Positions 17,795 through 23,331 of a stretch of 64,000 nt of DNA are shown here, in pieces; the stretch's first letter is position 1, and the number at the start of each line of letters is the position of its first letter. The notes under the pieces were generated by a model. The model did not search any database and was not told the DNA's origin. It saw only the letters and a program-made list of their open reading frames with translations. Source of the DNA: Bryobacterales bacterium (lineage in GTDB: Bacteria > Acidobacteriota > Terriglobia > Bryobacterales > Bryobacteraceae). A program made the translations under genes and the position numbers. The stretch spans positions 1 through 64,000 of the forward strand of contig JADZCM010000050.1 of NCBI GenBank assembly GCA_020851555.1, read 5' to 3'.

Positions 17795-19165
17795 CTAGCC
17801 GGACACTGCCGGAGCAGGCTCGCCGAAGAACTCGTCGTGGAGCGCGCCGACCACCTTCGGCAGGTCCTGTTCCGCGACCACAAAAGTCAGGTTAAGCCGC
17901 GAGGCGCCCTGGGAGATCATGCGGATGTTCGCTCCGCCGGTGGCCCCGAAAGCGCGGGCGGCGACGCCCGGCGTGTGCCGTATGTTCTCGCCCACCAGGC
18001 ACACGATGGCCTGGTTCTCTTCCGTGTCCACTTCGGCGAACTCCCGCAACTCCCGGCAAATAACCGCCAGCCTGGCGGTGTTGTCAATCGTCATGGAAAC
18101 GCTGACCTCGCTCGTGGACACCACGTCTACCGGCGTCTGGTGCCGGTCGAAGACCTCGAAGATCCGCTTCAAGAAACCGTGCGCCATCAACATGCGCGTG
18201 GAATGGATGTTGACGACCGTGATCCGGTGTTTGCAGGCGATCGACTTGATGACGTTGGCGCAGGAGGTGGTCTCGGCCGTGATGCGCGTTCCGGCGGCTT
18301 CCGGACGCTTCGAGTTCAGGATGAGCACCGGGATGTTCTTCTCGACGGCCGGCAGGACGGTGGCGGGGTGCAGTACTTTCGCCCCGAAGTACGCCAGTTC
18401 CGCGGCCTCCGCGAAGGAGATCGCCTCGACCCTGTGGCCTCCGGGAAAAACCGTGGGGTCCGCGGAAAGCATCCCGTCCACGTCGGTCCAGATCTGGATT
18501 TCCTTCGCGCCGATGCCGGCCCCCACCAGGGCTGCGCTGTAGTCGGAGCCGCCGCGGCCGAGCGTGGAAGTCACTCCCCGCTCGGTGGAGCCGATGAAGC
18601 CGCCCATGACCACCACCTTCTCCCTGGCCAGCGGCGCCACCACGTCGGCCAGCAGCGCGTAGGTGCGGCTGAGCAGGGGCGCTGCCTGCGTGTGGTGTCC
18701 GTCGGTGATGATCACGTTGCGCGAGTCCACGTGGGCCGTGGGTATCCCCTGCCGGCGGAACGCCAGCGCGACGATGGCGCTGGAGAGGCGCTCGCCGTAG
18801 CTGGAGATGGCGTCCACGGAGCGCGGAGAAAGCTCGCCCACCAGTCCCAGCCCCTTGACCAGTTCGCCCAGCTCCTGAAAATGCTCCTCTATGATCCCGC
18901 GCACCGCGGGCCGGTCCTGCTCCAGAACGGCAGGTTCGGCTTCGCGCAGGTGGAAGGAGCGAAGGTCTTCCAGTTGAGCCAGGGCCGCGCTGCGGCGTCC
19001 GGCGGCCGCGTCGGCGGCGATAGACAGCAGCTTATTGGTGGTCTTCCCCATGGCGGAGACGACCACCGCCGGGCGCCGGTCGAGCCGCGCCTTCACGATG
19101 GAGGCAACCCGTTCCAGAGCGGCCGCCGATTCCACCGACGTTCCGCCGAATTTCATCACGATCAT
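17795..19165 (-). CDS. lysC: aspartate kinase with C-terminal ACT domains
   Basis: The start is set at 19165 (MIVMKFGGTSV); upstream codons of the open frame run into asd. The 456-residue monofunctional kinase phosphorylates aspartate, the first step of lysine, threonine and methionine synthesis. Visible features are KFGGTSVESAAAL, SYGERLSSAIVAL, the GGSDYSAALVGAGIGAKEIQIWTDVDG block and FAEAAELAYFGAKVLHP. The last 150 residues form paired ACT domains (TVVNIHSTRMLMAHGF; ANIRMISQGASRLNLTFVV), so allosteric feedback by lysine and/or threonine is expected. Confidence 0.95.
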   Translation of the reverse strand: MIVMKFGGTSVESAAALERVASIVKARLDRRPAVVVSAMGKTTNKLLSIAADAAAGRRSAALAQLEDLRSFHLREAEPAVLEQDRPAVRGIIEEHFQELGELVKGLGLVGELSPRSVDAISSYGERLSSAIVALAFRRQGIPTAHVDSRNVIITDGHHTQAAPLLSRTYALLADVVAPLAREKVVVMGGFIGSTERGVTSTLGRGGSDYSAALVGAGIGAKEIQIWTDVDGMLSADPTVFPGGHRVEAISFAEAAELAYFGAKVLHPATVLPAVEKNIPVLILNSKRPEAAGTRITAETTSCANVIKSIACKHRITVVNIHSTRMLMAHGFLKRIFEVFDRHQTPVDVVSTSEVSVSMTIDNTARLAVICRELREFAEVDTEENQAIVCLVGENIRHTPGVAARAFGATGGANIRMISQGASRLNLTFVVAEQDLPKVVGALHDEFFGEPAPAVSG

Positions 19166-19197
19166 AAAGACGTCTCCGCGCCGGGCATGTCCGGCGT

Positions 19198-20244
19198 CTA
19201 TACCAGGCCTTCCGACACCAGCAGCTCCGCGTTCAGCACCGCCGCGCCCGCCGCGCCCCGGACTGTGTTGTGCCCCATGGCCACGAACTTGTAGTCGAAG
19301 ACCGGACACGCGCGCAGCCGTCCGGCGAACACCGCCTGCCCGCGCTCCCGTTCCACGTCTTTGCGCGGCTGGGGCCGGTTGGGCTGAGTCATGTAGATCA
19401 CCGGAACAGGGGGCGCGCTCGGGAGCTTGCGCTGCTGCGGCACGCCGGCGAAGCTCCGGAAAGCCTCGAGCAGGTCCGACTCGGCGGGCTTGGAGGAAAA
19501 CTCTACCGATATGGTCGCCGTGTGGCCGTCAACCACGGGGACGCGGTTGCAGTGCGCGCTGACTCGCGCATCCAGGTTCCGCACCCGGCCGTCCTCGAAA
19601 TCGCCCAGGATCTTCTGGGTCTCCTGCTGCATCTTCTCTTCTTCGCCGCCGATGTAGGGGATGACATTCGCCACGATGTCCATGGACGCCACGCCCGGAT
19701 AGCCCGCCCCGGAGATGGCCTGCAACGTGGTCACCACGACGCGGCGAATGCCGAAGGGCTTGAGTGGAGCGAGCCCCATGGTCAGCACAACGGTGGAGCA
19801 GTTCGGGTTGGTTACGATCAACCCCTTCCAGCCGCGCCCGCCGCGCTGGATGGGCGCCAGCCTCAGGTGGTCCGCGTTGACCTCGGGAACCAGCAGCGGC
19901 ACGTCCACATCCATGCGGTGGTTGCGCGAGTTGGACACCACGGCATGACCGGCCTTGGCGAAGGCCTGCTCGATCTCGGTCGCCACGCTGGCGTCGGTGG
20001 CGGAAAACACGATCGGGGGCGCATTGCCGGGCTTGCATTCCTCCACCACCAGGTCCGCCACGCTGGCGGGCGTCTCTCCTCCCAGGTGCCATTGCGCCGC
20101 GTCACGATACTTCTTCCCGGCCGACCTGTCGCTCGCTCCCAACCATGTCAGGTCGAACCACGGATGATTCTGAAGAAACCTGACAAAGTGCTGGCCCACC
20201 ATGCCGGTGGCGCCCAGGATTCCTACTTGGATTTTTCGTTGCAT
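19198..20244 (-). CDS. asd: aspartate-semialdehyde dehydrogenase
   Basis: A 348-residue NADPH-dependent enzyme with N-terminal VGILGATGMVGQHF, VVSNSRNHRMD, and the catalytic cysteine C149 in VTNPNCSTVVLT. A histidine in RVSAHCNRVPVVDGH serves as the acid/base. Sequence style (SNSRNHRM, long QRKIQ start) resembles the archaeal/fungal-type Asd rather than the enterobacterial one. It lies 13 bases after the M20 gene and 32 bases before lysC on the minus strand. Product feeds DapA. Confidence 0.95.
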   Translation of the reverse strand: MQRKIQVGILGATGMVGQHFVRFLQNHPWFDLTWLGASDRSAGKKYRDAAQWHLGGETPASVADLVVEECKPGNAPPIVFSATDASVATEIEQAFAKAGHAVVSNSRNHRMDVDVPLLVPEVNADHLRLAPIQRGGRGWKGLIVTNPNCSTVVLTMGLAPLKPFGIRRVVVTTLQAISGAGYPGVASMDIVANVIPYIGGEEEKMQQETQKILGDFEDGRVRNLDARVSAHCNRVPVVDGHTATISVEFSSKPAESDLLEAFRSFAGVPQQRKLPSAPPVPVIYMTQPNRPQPRKDVERERGQAVFAGRLRACPVFDYKFVAMGHNTVRGAAGAAVLNAELLVSEGLV

Positions 20245-20257
20245 TATTTGTCCTTCG

Positions 20258-21271
20258 CTAAGTGGCGAGTAACTGCTTCACCATGCCCTTGTAGATCTGG
20301 ACGGCTTCGGCGAGCTGCCGCTTCGGCGCGTGTTCCTCCAGGGTGTGGGCCACGTGGATCGAGCCCGGCCCCAGCAGGAAAGGCTTGCCCCAAACTCCGC
20401 CGAACGCGGGGATGTCCGAAGTGTAGGCCACCACCGTGGTGGGGATGCCCGGCAGGCTGTCCAGCCGCACCGCGGGAATGCACAGGACCTCTTGCGCCTC
20501 CGCGCGCCCGGCCACCGTCCGGATCACGGCCCGCCGCACGGGCTCCGGGTCCCCCACCAGGCGGATCATGACCTCGGCGGAAGCACGGTCGGGAACTACG
20601 TTCGACGCCCGTCCTCCGGAGACCGTGCCGATATTCAGCGTCCCCGGCCCCAGCAGCGGGTCTACGGGCTGCTGCATCGCCCGCAGGTCCTGCAACACAT
20701 CCAGCAGCTTGTCGATGGCGGATTCGCCCAACTCGGGGTAGGCGGAGTGCGCCATCTTGCCTCGGGCTGCGATCTCATAGCGCAGAGCGCCTTTGGAGCC
20801 CAGGGCAAGCTGGTTCCCGCTCGGTTCGCCGTTGATCAGGAAGCGGGAGCCGCGCGGCCGCCGGGCGGCCTCCCGGGCGCCGGCGCTGTTCTTCTCTTCG
20901 CCCACCACGAACAGCAGCCCGAAGTCCCTCACGCCTTCCTCAAGCAACTCCGCAGCGGCGCAGACCATGGAGGCGAGGATGCCCTTGGCGTCGCAGGCGC
21001 CGCGCCCCCAGATGCGGTCCTCGTCCTCCCGGGAAGGGATATGCGGCGGCACCGTATCGATGTGCGTGGACAGGGTCACGGCCGGATTGCCCCAATGCGC
21101 GAAGACGTTGAAACGGCTGGGCTCGACCTCCATCCTCTCGGCCTGGCCCTGGTGGCGTCCGGCGAGCTCCGCGAGATGCGTGAACAGGAATTCGCCGGCT
21201 TCCTTCTCGTTGCCGGTGATCGATTCGATGTCGATCAGCCTTCGCGTCAGCTCAAACAGGTCCATAACCAT
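20258..21271 (-). CDS. M20-family metallo-deacylase (ArgE/DapE/LysK-like)
   Basis: A 337-residue di-zinc amidohydrolase; ATG codons at 21271 and 21265 are both possible. Metal and catalytic motifs are LSTHIDTVPP, WGRGACDAKG and the general base in VVGEEKNSAG, with a dimerisation domain around ARGKMAHSAYPELGES and a final HVAHTLEEH. It is first in the minus-strand asd-lysC-dapB-dapA operon. With DapL nearby, a succinyl-DAP desuccinylase is not strictly needed, so ArgE/LysK-type deacylation or another acyl-amino-acid role is open. Confidence 0.85.
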   Translation of the reverse strand: MVMDLFELTRRLIDIESITGNEKEAGEFLFTHLAELAGRHQGQAERMEVEPSRFNVFAHWGNPAVTLSTHIDTVPPHIPSREDEDRIWGRGACDAKGILASMVCAAAELLEEGVRDFGLLFVVGEEKNSAGAREAARRPRGSRFLINGEPSGNQLALGSKGALRYEIAARGKMAHSAYPELGESAIDKLLDVLQDLRAMQQPVDPLLGPGTLNIGTVSGGRASNVVPDRASAEVMIRLVGDPEPVRRAVIRTVAGRAEAQEVLCIPAVRLDSLPGIPTTVVAYTSDIPAFGGVWGKPFLLGPGSIHVAHTLEEHAPKRQLAEAVQIYKGMVKQLLAT

Positions 21272-21577
21272 CCAGTCTGCGGGTAGAGGCTAACGGAAGG
21301 GAGGAACCGCGGAGGCGTGCGGCCGGCGTTTCTTCGCTTCTCGATAGCGCTCCATCCACCCCGGCGGTGGATGACAGTGGGCAGGCGTTATCCTGACCCC
21401 CCAGCCGCCGCCGGAGATCGCTTCCGGGACGGCTTCGGCGGACTTACTTCAGGCCCCTTTCACCGGGCGTCCGGAGCAGCCCGGAAACGCGCGCCCCGCT
21501 ACTCATGACCTCCGCGCCTCTACCAAGAGAGGCCTTCAGGATATCGAAGGAACCGAATGGATGTCAAATTCCAGTCT
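21272..21577. other. non-coding region between the lysine operon and the insertion sequence
   Basis: About 300 bases with no convincing coding frame. The only structure seen is a perfect inverted repeat at 21353-21373. A lysine riboswitch was looked for upstream of the M20 gene and not recognised. Confidence 0.4.
21353..21373. repeat. perfect 8-bp inverted repeat upstream of the lysine operon
   Basis: CATCCACC (21353-21360), a 5-base loop, then GGTGGATG (21366-21373). It lies about 80 bases upstream of the M20 start. It could be an operator or an RNA hairpin; no U-tract follows on either strand. Confidence 0.4.
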
Positions 21578-21579
21578 TG

Positions 21580-21637
21580 TCTCATACAAGATGAGCCTGA
21601 AGCGAGGATGCGTTTCTCACACAAGATGAGCCTGAAG
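21580..21637 (+). repeat. tandem 23-bp direct repeats at IS left end
   Basis: Copy 1 occupies 21580-21602 and copy 2 occupies 21615-21637, with a 35-base period and one mismatch (TCTCATAC versus TCTCACAC). They are likely transposase-binding sites in the terminal region. Confidence 0.7.
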
Positions 21638-21659
21638 GCGGGATCAGCCATGCTGGGGA

Positions 21660-22901
21660 TTGACCGTCAGAGTGCAGCAGGGAGAAGGGTTGAGCCTGGA
21701 GCAGATCCGGGCGCTATTGAAGGCCGGCCATGAGCTTCGATTCCAAGGGCAGCGCCGGGAAGAGGTCTACGCTTGGGTGGATCGGACTTTGAGGCGGCAG
21801 CGCTACCAGGAACTGGGCCGGGCGGCGCGCGGGGTGGTGCGCTTGTACGTGGCGAAGATGACCGGATTGAGCCGGGCCCAGGTGACGCGGCGGATCAGCC
21901 AGTATTTGCGCGGGCAGCCGGTGAAGCCGAAGCTCTATCGGCGGCGCCGGTTTGCGAGCCAGTATACGGCGGCCGGCGCCGAATTGCTGGCGCGGGTGGA
22001 CGAGGGGCACGAGACGCTCAGCAGGCCGGCCACGCAGAAGATACTGCAACGGGAGTGCTACGACTTTGGCGGCCAGCGCTACCAGCGCTTGGCGCGCATT
22101 TCGGTGGCTCACCTGTACCGTTTGCGGCAGAGTCGGAGCTACCGCCAGCAGCGCGTGCGCTACCGGAAAACCCGGCCGACGGCGGTGGCCATCGGCGAGC
22201 GGCGCCGGCCGGAGCCGCAAGGCCGACCGGGGTTTCTGCGGGTGGACACGGTGCATCAGGGCGATCGGGATGGGGAGAAGGGGCTCTATCACATCAACGC
22301 CGTGGACGAGGTGACGCAGTGGCAGATCGTGGGAGCCACCGCGCACATCAGCGAAGCCTGGCTAGAACCGGTGCTGGCGGCCCTGCTGGAGCAGTTCCCG
22401 TTTCAGCTGCGGGGTTTTCATTCCGGCAATGGCAGCGAGTTCATCAACCAGACGGTGGCCCGGCTGCGGAACAAACTGCTGGTGGAGCAGACCAAGTCGC
22501 GGCCGCGGCACTCCAACGACAACGGCCTGGTGGAAGGCAAGAATGGGGCGGTGATCCGGAAGCACATCGGCTATGGGCACATCGCTGCGGAGCAGGCCGA
22601 AGCGTTGCAGACATTCTACCGGGAGCATTTCAACCCCGACCTGAATTTCCACCGGCCCTGCGGCCAGCCCGAGATCCGTACGGATGGCAAGGGCAAACAG
22701 AGGCGCGTCTACCCGTGGTACGCCACCCCCTGGGAGATGCTGCGGCGGTTGCCGGGAGTGTCCGGTTACCTCAAAGAGGGCGTAACGATCCACGCTCTGG
22801 AGGCTCAGGCGCGGGCCCAAAGCGATACGCAGGCGGCGGTGGCGATGCAGAGGGCCAAGCACGCACTGTTGGCCAAGATCTACCGGAGAAAGACGGCTTG
22901 A
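21660..22901 (+). CDS. integrase-core (rve) transposase, probably catalytically dead
   Basis: A 413-residue transposase with an N-terminal helix-turn-helix region (KMTGLSRAQVTRRISQY) and a DDE integrase core. D196 lies in LRVDTVHQGD and E292 in DNGLVEGKNG. The second acidic residue, expected in the block HSDNGSEF, is G256 (GGC at 22425-22427; a single A-to-G change from GAC). D196-G256-E292 keeps the exact DD(35)E spacing. The annotated TTG start is weak; GTG at 21672 is an alternative. It resembles IS families whose members lack a second ORF (ISNCY/IS481-like). Probably inactive, but it could still bind its ends. Confidence 0.85.
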   Translation: MTVRVQQGEGLSLEQIRALLKAGHELRFQGQRREEVYAWVDRTLRRQRYQELGRAARGVVRLYVAKMTGLSRAQVTRRISQYLRGQPVKPKLYRRRRFASQYTAAGAELLARVDEGHETLSRPATQKILQRECYDFGGQRYQRLARISVAHLYRLRQSRSYRQQRVRYRKTRPTAVAIGERRRPEPQGRPGFLRVDTVHQGDRDGEKGLYHINAVDEVTQWQIVGATAHISEAWLEPVLAALLEQFPFQLRGFHSGNGSEFINQTVARLRNKLLVEQTKSRPRHSNDNGLVEGKNGAVIRKHIGYGHIAAEQAEALQTFYREHFNPDLNFHRPCGQPEIRTDGKGKQRRVYPWYATPWEMLRRLPGVSGYLKEGVTIHALEAQARAQSDTQAAVAMQRAKHALLAKIYRRKTA

Positions 22902-22905
22902 AGCA

Positions 22906-23011
22906 GGCTGTGGAAATGCCGGGCGGTGGAAGCCGTGGAAAACCGCCAGCGGTTTCCCACCACTCCCACCGCCCTTGGAAATCGCTGCGCGATTCCCACA
23001 TTGCCACAGCC
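22906..23011. repeat. multi-arm (cloverleaf-like) palindrome downstream of the transposase
   Basis: Outer stem: 22906-22918 pairs with 22999-23011 (12 of 13 bases). Inside it, GGGCGGTGG (22921-22929) pairs perfectly with 22966-22974. That stem encloses a third arm, 22935-22946 with 22949-22960 (11 of 12). A separate arm pairs 22977-22985 with 22989-22996 with one bulged A. All arms reuse a GTGGAAA/TTTCCCAC word. This could fold as RNA or as single-stranded DNA; function unknown. Confidence 0.75.
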
Positions 23012-23079
23012 ACGACGACTCCGATCCCTTTCTCCGAACTTCAAAACCAAGGGAGACTCAGCTCAGGCTGGACCCGCTC

Positions 23080-23103
23080 CTCCAGGCTCATCCTTCGAGG
23101 AGA
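23080..23103 (-). repeat. degenerate right terminal repeat of the IS
   Basis: The sequence has a 10-base perfect match (CAGGCTCATC, 23083-23092) to the inverted left repeat, then a diverged segment with one extra base ending GAGA. It marks the probable right end of the element. Confidence 0.5.
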
Positions 23104-23331
23104 ATATGCTATTCCATGGACGGTCCGGTGCACGCGACGGAAATCTGACCTGAGGCGATTCTCGGGCAAGAACCCATTCATCTGACGGCGCTTCCGAGAC
23201 TGGGACGGGCGCCGGGTGAGGCCGGGCATTCGGCCCGCGGCCGGCCGGAACCGCCGCCCGGTTGTCTGCGGGCGTGCGCCGTGCTAACTTCAGACTCGGA
23301 CAAGAACATCTCGAAAGCGAGGATAGGGCCG

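Follow-up and report, generated by a model that had tools for sequence, protein, structure and literature searches.

Immediately behind a transposase gene of a Bryobacterales bacterium lies a 106-base palindrome, at positions 22906–23011 of the 64,000-nucleotide stretch of DNA analysed here (contig JADZCM010000050.1; hereafter the window). Its branching structure raises the question of whether it is an accident of one insertion sequence (IS), a member of a repeat family or a part that mobile elements share, and what its fold could be for.

Fold of the palindrome and its insertion sequence

Folding of 22900–23020 confirmed that the palindrome, here called the Y-element, forms a three-way junction. 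In the minimum-free-energy (MFE) structure, 22906–22913 pairs with 23004–23011, and the outermost pair, 22906/23011, coincides with the ends drawn in an earlier note made from the sequence alone. The outer stem (22906–22919/22998–23011) encloses a long inner arm, arm 1 (22921–22974), and a short separate hairpin, arm 2 (22977–22997); a short unpaired tail lies beside the outer stem at 23012–23019 on the minus strand. Alignments and flanks give this tail the consensus CGTCGTCG, which is frequent among copies in this or a similar form and not invariant, CGCCGCCG and CGGATTCG being variants. The earlier note had described a cloverleaf of four stems built from one repeated word; the word, GTGGAAA/TTTCCCAC, is real, and the outer stem, inner arm and separate hairpin are retained, while a single three-way junction describes the fold better than four separate stems do. 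The predicted energy is −62.5 kcal/mol for plus-strand RNA (shuffles −37.8, z −7.2), −80.6 kcal/mol for minus-strand RNA (shuffles −45.8, z −9.6) and −37.0 kcal/mol for plus-strand DNA (z −6.7), and no shuffled sequence equalled the real energy in any of the three. The stems contain A.C mismatches on the plus strand and are nearly perfect, with G-U pairs, on the minus strand, on which the covariance model described below matches 22903–23021 with 113.6 bits. Rfam, searched at a permissive threshold, returned no family for the Y-element; its hits there were weak chance matches to eukaryotic miRNA hairpins, scoring far under the gathering thresholds. Within 22850–23200, neither an intrinsic terminator (a G+C hairpin followed by a T run) nor, by the sigma-70 consensus only, a promoter-like site was detected.

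The Y-element lies between the transposase stop and the right end of the IS, and four bases separate the end of the reading frame at 22901 from 22906. The IS measures 1538 bp (21573–23110, plus strand), is bordered by a 5-bp target duplication, ATTCC (21568–21572 and 23111–23115), and has subterminal inverted GATGAGCCTG repeats, doubled at the left with a 35-base spacing and single at the right; the right end is conserved in four relatives (L017, L019, L124 and L055). Its transposase (413 aa from a TTG start, 21660–22901, plus strand) has a weak IS481/IS3/rve match below curated cut-offs, scoring 44.3 bits against the NCBIfam IS481 equivalog, whose cut-off is 224; by its sequence, it is of the rve type and outside the NCBIfam-named groups. 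The catalytic region reads GNGSEF, whereas a relative encoded on contig C1 of this genome reads DNGSEF; this supports the earlier view of the transposase as dead, and a truncated copy on the same contig, 97% alike, carries the same change. No Y-element was found in the approximately 110 bases of the DNGSEF relative that precede a G homopolymer; the contig ends in this run of about 80 bases (L012, G000:C1:1–80), which is probably an assembly or sequencing artefact. The left 76 bp of the window IS recur alone, 97% identical, on contig C17 (L010, approximately 1930–2020), as a relic or a single-end event.

The IS is inserted next to a lysine riboswitch (21337–21530, minus strand; 55.2 bits, gathering score 30). 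Downstream of the riboswitch, the minus-strand reading frames, named by eye, resemble those for an M20 peptidase/DapE (20258–21271), an aspartate-semialdehyde dehydrogenase (19198–20244) and an aspartokinase (17795–19309). Since the IS sits approximately 42 bp beyond the riboswitch 5′ end, its insertion may have separated the riboswitch from its promoter.

Copies, carriers and exchange between insertion sequences

The same genome contains a second copy, 79% identical over 120 bases, which starts approximately 32 bases past an istB stop codon on contig C38 and, used as a query, found matches in 20 of 61 related genomes. A covariance model (R1) built on the minus strand from an alignment of 13 full copies was positive in 50 of 150 genomes of the family, in 78 of 396 genomes of the phylum Acidobacteriota, and in 2 of 200 genomes of the phylum to which a Gemmatimonadaceae record (G607) belongs. 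Among the 80 matches listed in a GTDB pattern scan, nearly all were from Acidobacteriota (Granulicella, Terriglobus, Bryobacter, Sulfotelmatobacter and others), the remainder being a single Gemmatimonadaceae record and two contigs from the same Betaproteobacteria record; plasmid matches came from Acidisarcina and Granulicella only. The phage records searched contained no match, which leaves a phage origin without support; three stretches matching the Y-element were seen in viral contigs. Copies span approximately 106–155 bp and have 44 consensus pairs. At one locus (L219, G483:C139:5715–5839), an A+T-rich version of the fold adjoins, by eye, a Pal/OmpA-like gene, and further copies, whose contexts were surveyed briefly, occur in more distant classes.

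The pairing is conserved across these copies. In a MAFFT alignment of the 13 full copies, which was not fitted to the structure and shows the same helices, 13 of the 44 consensus pairs have double changes. In an alignment of 78 matches that was fitted to the structure, and whose counts therefore lean toward it, 94.6% of cells are paired (37–63% in slid-structure controls), both-side changes occur in 26 of 44 pairs compared with 12.2 in shuffles, and the covariation score is 0.145 compared with 0.068; none of 500 shuffles reached the paired fraction, the double-change count or the covariation score. The genome searches and alignments found the dispersed copies with compensatory changes that the earlier note had looked for as the mark of a repeat family, and the opposite expectation, of no other copies and a fold no better than shuffles, failed on both counts.

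To identify the carriers, the reading frames upstream of the copies were matched against 13 transposase references and named by NCBIfam. Above cut-off were the IS21 helper IstB (six lineages), IS3 and IS481 (two), with ISNCY represented by one carrier above cut-off and two below; in total, the carriers comprise at least four NCBIfam families (IS21, IS3, IS481 and ISNCY) and the rve group of the window. Among 65 distinct Y-elements near a transposase that could be classified, 64 are oriented in its sense; in the exception (L071), the transposase lies on the other side at a distance of 784 bp. Most groups have the Y-element start at most a few tens of bases from the stop codon; this distance is 70–300 bases in some IS21 copies, and in 20 sense-oriented ISNCY copies no stop codon closes the transposase frame before it enters the Y-element, and usually none within it. 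Three copies from other classes (L226 of G357, L232 of G497 and L224 of G461) lie on the 5′ side of genes that are encoded on the opposite strand and resemble, by eye, those of the IS110, IS256 and rve types; these ISs were possibly inserted beside a Y-element. Many window-type and some IS21 carriers also have AAAACCAA and GAAAGGA(G) motifs 20–100 bases downstream (GAAAGGA, 13 compared with 1.2 expected; AAAACCAA, 12 compared with 0.8), nearly absent on the reverse strand; they are Shine-Dalgarno-like, mostly lack a start codon and are common mainly to one IS group.

Two simple accounts of this association were rejected. The Y-element does not mark dead ISs, being carried by active ones that multiplied recently: in genome G123, for which the covariance model lists 15 copies of identical score, the four ISs compared are identical over 1521 bp, have 16–18 bp duplications and contain the Y-element, and in genome G168, with nine copies, the two ISs compared are identical over 1504 bp. 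Nor is it a fixed part of IS21; it was found within the fetched flanks at 1 of 30 IstB loci and 0 of 30 DDE_Tnp_1 loci of the family, the best-scoring loci in each case and not a random sample, and it is thus dispensable for IS21.

A tree of Y-elements intermixes the IS families, and mean identity is 0.78 within IS groups and 0.75 between them. Eight cross-family pairs are 78–89% identical within the Y-element, apart from one at 69% owing to a long loop insert; the closest pair across ISs, one copy behind a window-type transposase (L055) and one behind IstB (L116), reaches 90%. The same cross-family pairs are 15–38% alike over the 40 bases upstream and mostly 24–27% alike downstream (one pair is without downstream sequence), with 42–49% downstream in the two pairs that share a second hairpin. 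Because the copies are alike while their flanks are at chance level, the unit moves between ISs, and these alignments show that what the ISs exchange is the folded unit, sometimes together with a second hairpin built from the same words. No target duplication was seen at the Y-element borders in the cross-IS pairs. The second hairpin, a simple GGAAAAGTGGAAAACC...GGTTTCCCACTTTTCC structure, directly follows the Y-element at seven loci (L047, L051, L104, L062, L018, L079 and L154), is common to different IS families and has its own GCGACGACGA tail in some copies.

Copies outside complete ISs were seen in an Acidobacteriaceae-like genus (g91, family f8), where most lie inside longer dispersed repeats with an IS481-like right end. 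By sequence they look like IS remnants or MITEs, the latter being elements with terminal inverted repeats and target duplication of their own; that the Acidobacteriaceae copies are independent intergenic repeats was mostly not borne out. In conjugation operons of this genus, with gene names assigned by reading the protein ends, the Y-element immediately follows the stop codon of a TrbE/VirB4-like gene. In other genomes the operon is empty: the two genes overlap, or almost do, and the Y-element is missing; one genome retains a remnant.

These sequence comparisons show the Y-element to be a portable, structure-conserved cassette of Acidobacteriota mobile DNA, which sits at the transposase 3′ end of unrelated IS families, has been exchanged between them as a unit and has also entered a conjugation operon. 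Of the earlier proposal of a mobile palindrome inserted in the IS, the repeat family and the portability hold; a single accident in a dead IS does not, given the many unrelated ISs that carry it. The same place and orientation across carriers suggests that the cassette has a shared job.

Relation to described repeats and signals

The REP superfamily is the nearest described kind. Like REP repeats, the Y-element is palindromic, dispersed and often downstream of coding regions; its short CGTCGTCG-like unpaired tail may correspond to their end tag, CGTC in one of the two types, and its words may resemble their ATTCCC/GGGAAT-like words. CGTC- and GTAG-tagged REP repeats, however, are 20–40 bp long and form a single hairpin with a 5–13 bp stem, and the CGTC repeats have been reported in five phyla, Acidobacteria not among them, and any links of theirs to transposase genes were judged fortuitous (Di Nocera et al. 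2013, PMC3733652). The Y-element is a three-way junction of 106–155 bp and 44 pairs, lies inside ISs in a fixed orientation, and has a common but variable tail where those repeats carry an unpaired terminal GTAG or CGTC tag; it is dispersed as REP repeats are, though mostly IS-borne in its own family. Linkage to RAYT, a trait of GTAG-type REP repeats, was seen at 0 of 30 Y1_Tnp loci of carrier genomes within the fetched flanks. Because its size, fold and orientation differ and no RAYT linkage was seen at these 30 loci, the Y-element is not filed as a REP repeat; from the REP/BIME-type assignment of the earlier note, the dispersed repeat family remains, and the REP definition falls with the three-way junction, the fixed wobble motif and the lack of RAYT linkage at those loci.

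BIMEs and ERIC sequences resemble the Y-element as intergenic, transcribed palindromes of approximately 100 bp; they are not known as a unit common to the transposase 3′ ends of unrelated IS families. A possible functional analogy is offered by ssi, sso and Frpo, single-strand initiation (primer-start) signals of plasmids and phages, which likewise would combine an orientation-specific folded strand with host dependence and borrowing by unrelated mobile elements. The attC sites of integrons are also analogous in having a bottom-strand fold directly behind a reading frame in a fixed orientation, but they carry integrase core sites at both palindrome ends; at the Y-element ends such boxes are not evident, no GTTRRRY-like end was found by eye at 23000–23020, and no cassette or integron context was seen. 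A literature search, covering sources outside subscription journals, found no description of the Y-element.

Acting strand and possible function

On the minus strand, each of the four stems contains 5′-UGGGAA/UUUCCA; one of its pairs, always at the same position, is a G-U wobble whose plus-strand counterpart is A.C. In a set of 37 copies that was not chosen by the search pattern (A3), G-U is kept, and not replaced by G-C or A-U, in 32, 27, 28 and 24 copies at the four wobble sites; in another set (A2), the pattern itself fixes two of the four. Outside these sites, the ratio of G-U to A.C is 84:19 under a model built on the minus strand, and the minus strand folds more stably in 13 of 13 seeds. 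Because the minus strand pairs better, with G-U where the plus strand has A.C, the bottom strand is favoured as the acting one, as single-stranded DNA or RNA; a ssDNA fold and an IS-encoded structured RNA had been the other two suggestions of the earlier note. A fixed wobble in four stems would be more easily explained by recognition of a hairpin than by binding of double-stranded DNA. Together, the fixed wobble motif and the strong covariation indicate, at the sequence level, selection on the fold, which could act on the spread of the Y-element itself.

We tentatively hypothesize, as a possibility somewhat short of probable and with its variants included, that the Y-element is a bottom-strand docking signal read by a host factor. 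The folded strand itself, most probably the bottom one, would be what acts, either in single-stranded DNA form while its carrier transposes, is replicated or is transferred by conjugation, or as antisense RNA. A host factor of the phylum would recognise the three-way junction through the four UGGGAA/UUUCCA stem copies, which hold the fixed G-U pair (G-T in DNA), and mobile elements would have borrowed this docking signal, a logic like that of ssi/sso signals or REP hairpins; that it recruits the factor is a guess. The specific form of this hypothesis, in which a phylum-specific single-strand signal was independently borrowed by unrelated ISs and conjugative elements and recruits a host replication or transcription factor, is more doubtful. 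Several observations weigh against a docking signal: the strand argument depends on an alignment fitted to a minus-strand model and, in A2, on a pattern that fixes two wobble sites; IS21 mostly does without the Y-element, as the IstB loci indicate; the surroundings (22850–23200) offer no promoter- or terminator-like site; and the exchange between ISs could be ordinary recombination of a neutral passenger.

The fixed orientation relative to the gene would also suit a sense-strand element at the 3′ end of the mRNA, which would shield or destabilise the transposase transcript or stall ribosomes near the stop codon, as has been proposed for some REP repeats. The start a few to a few tens of bases past the stop in most non-ISNCY carriers and the common orientation in 64 of 65 elements agree with such a role, as does the conjugation operon, where the Y-element parts two otherwise overlapping genes and adds a ribosome-binding-like stretch. 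We nevertheless consider it rather unlikely, since every sense-strand stem has A.C mismatches where the other strand has G-U, and ribosomes would read through the fold in the 20 ISNCY copies, whose open frame disfavours a role as untranslated sense RNA.

Sporadic presence at the IstB and DDE_Tnp_1 loci and exchange between IS families are also what would be expected of a neutral or parasitic palindrome that settles in the one free site that an IS offers, the gap from the stop codon to the right end, and brings its carrier no advantage. This is unlikely, as random insertion should yield both orientations and the fixed wobble motif and covariation point to selection on the fold. The least probable reading is a structured antisense regulator, transcribed off the minus strand from the right end of the IS inward to the 3′ end of the transposase gene: the strand does fold strongly with G-U pairs (z −9.6), but the window has no promoter-like site by the sigma-70 consensus in 22850–23200, carriers so unrelated are not expected to offer long complementarity to a common target, and the orientation in the conjugation operon would be left unexplained.

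The same folded module accompanies transposase families that have no DNA in common, in one place and one orientation. If the Y-element is functional as a docking signal or otherwise, ISs would swap regulatory or replication modules like cassettes, and the Y-fold could lead to a host factor serving many mobile elements of one phylum; if it is only a parasite, it would be a mobile palindrome nested in other mobile elements and living on them.
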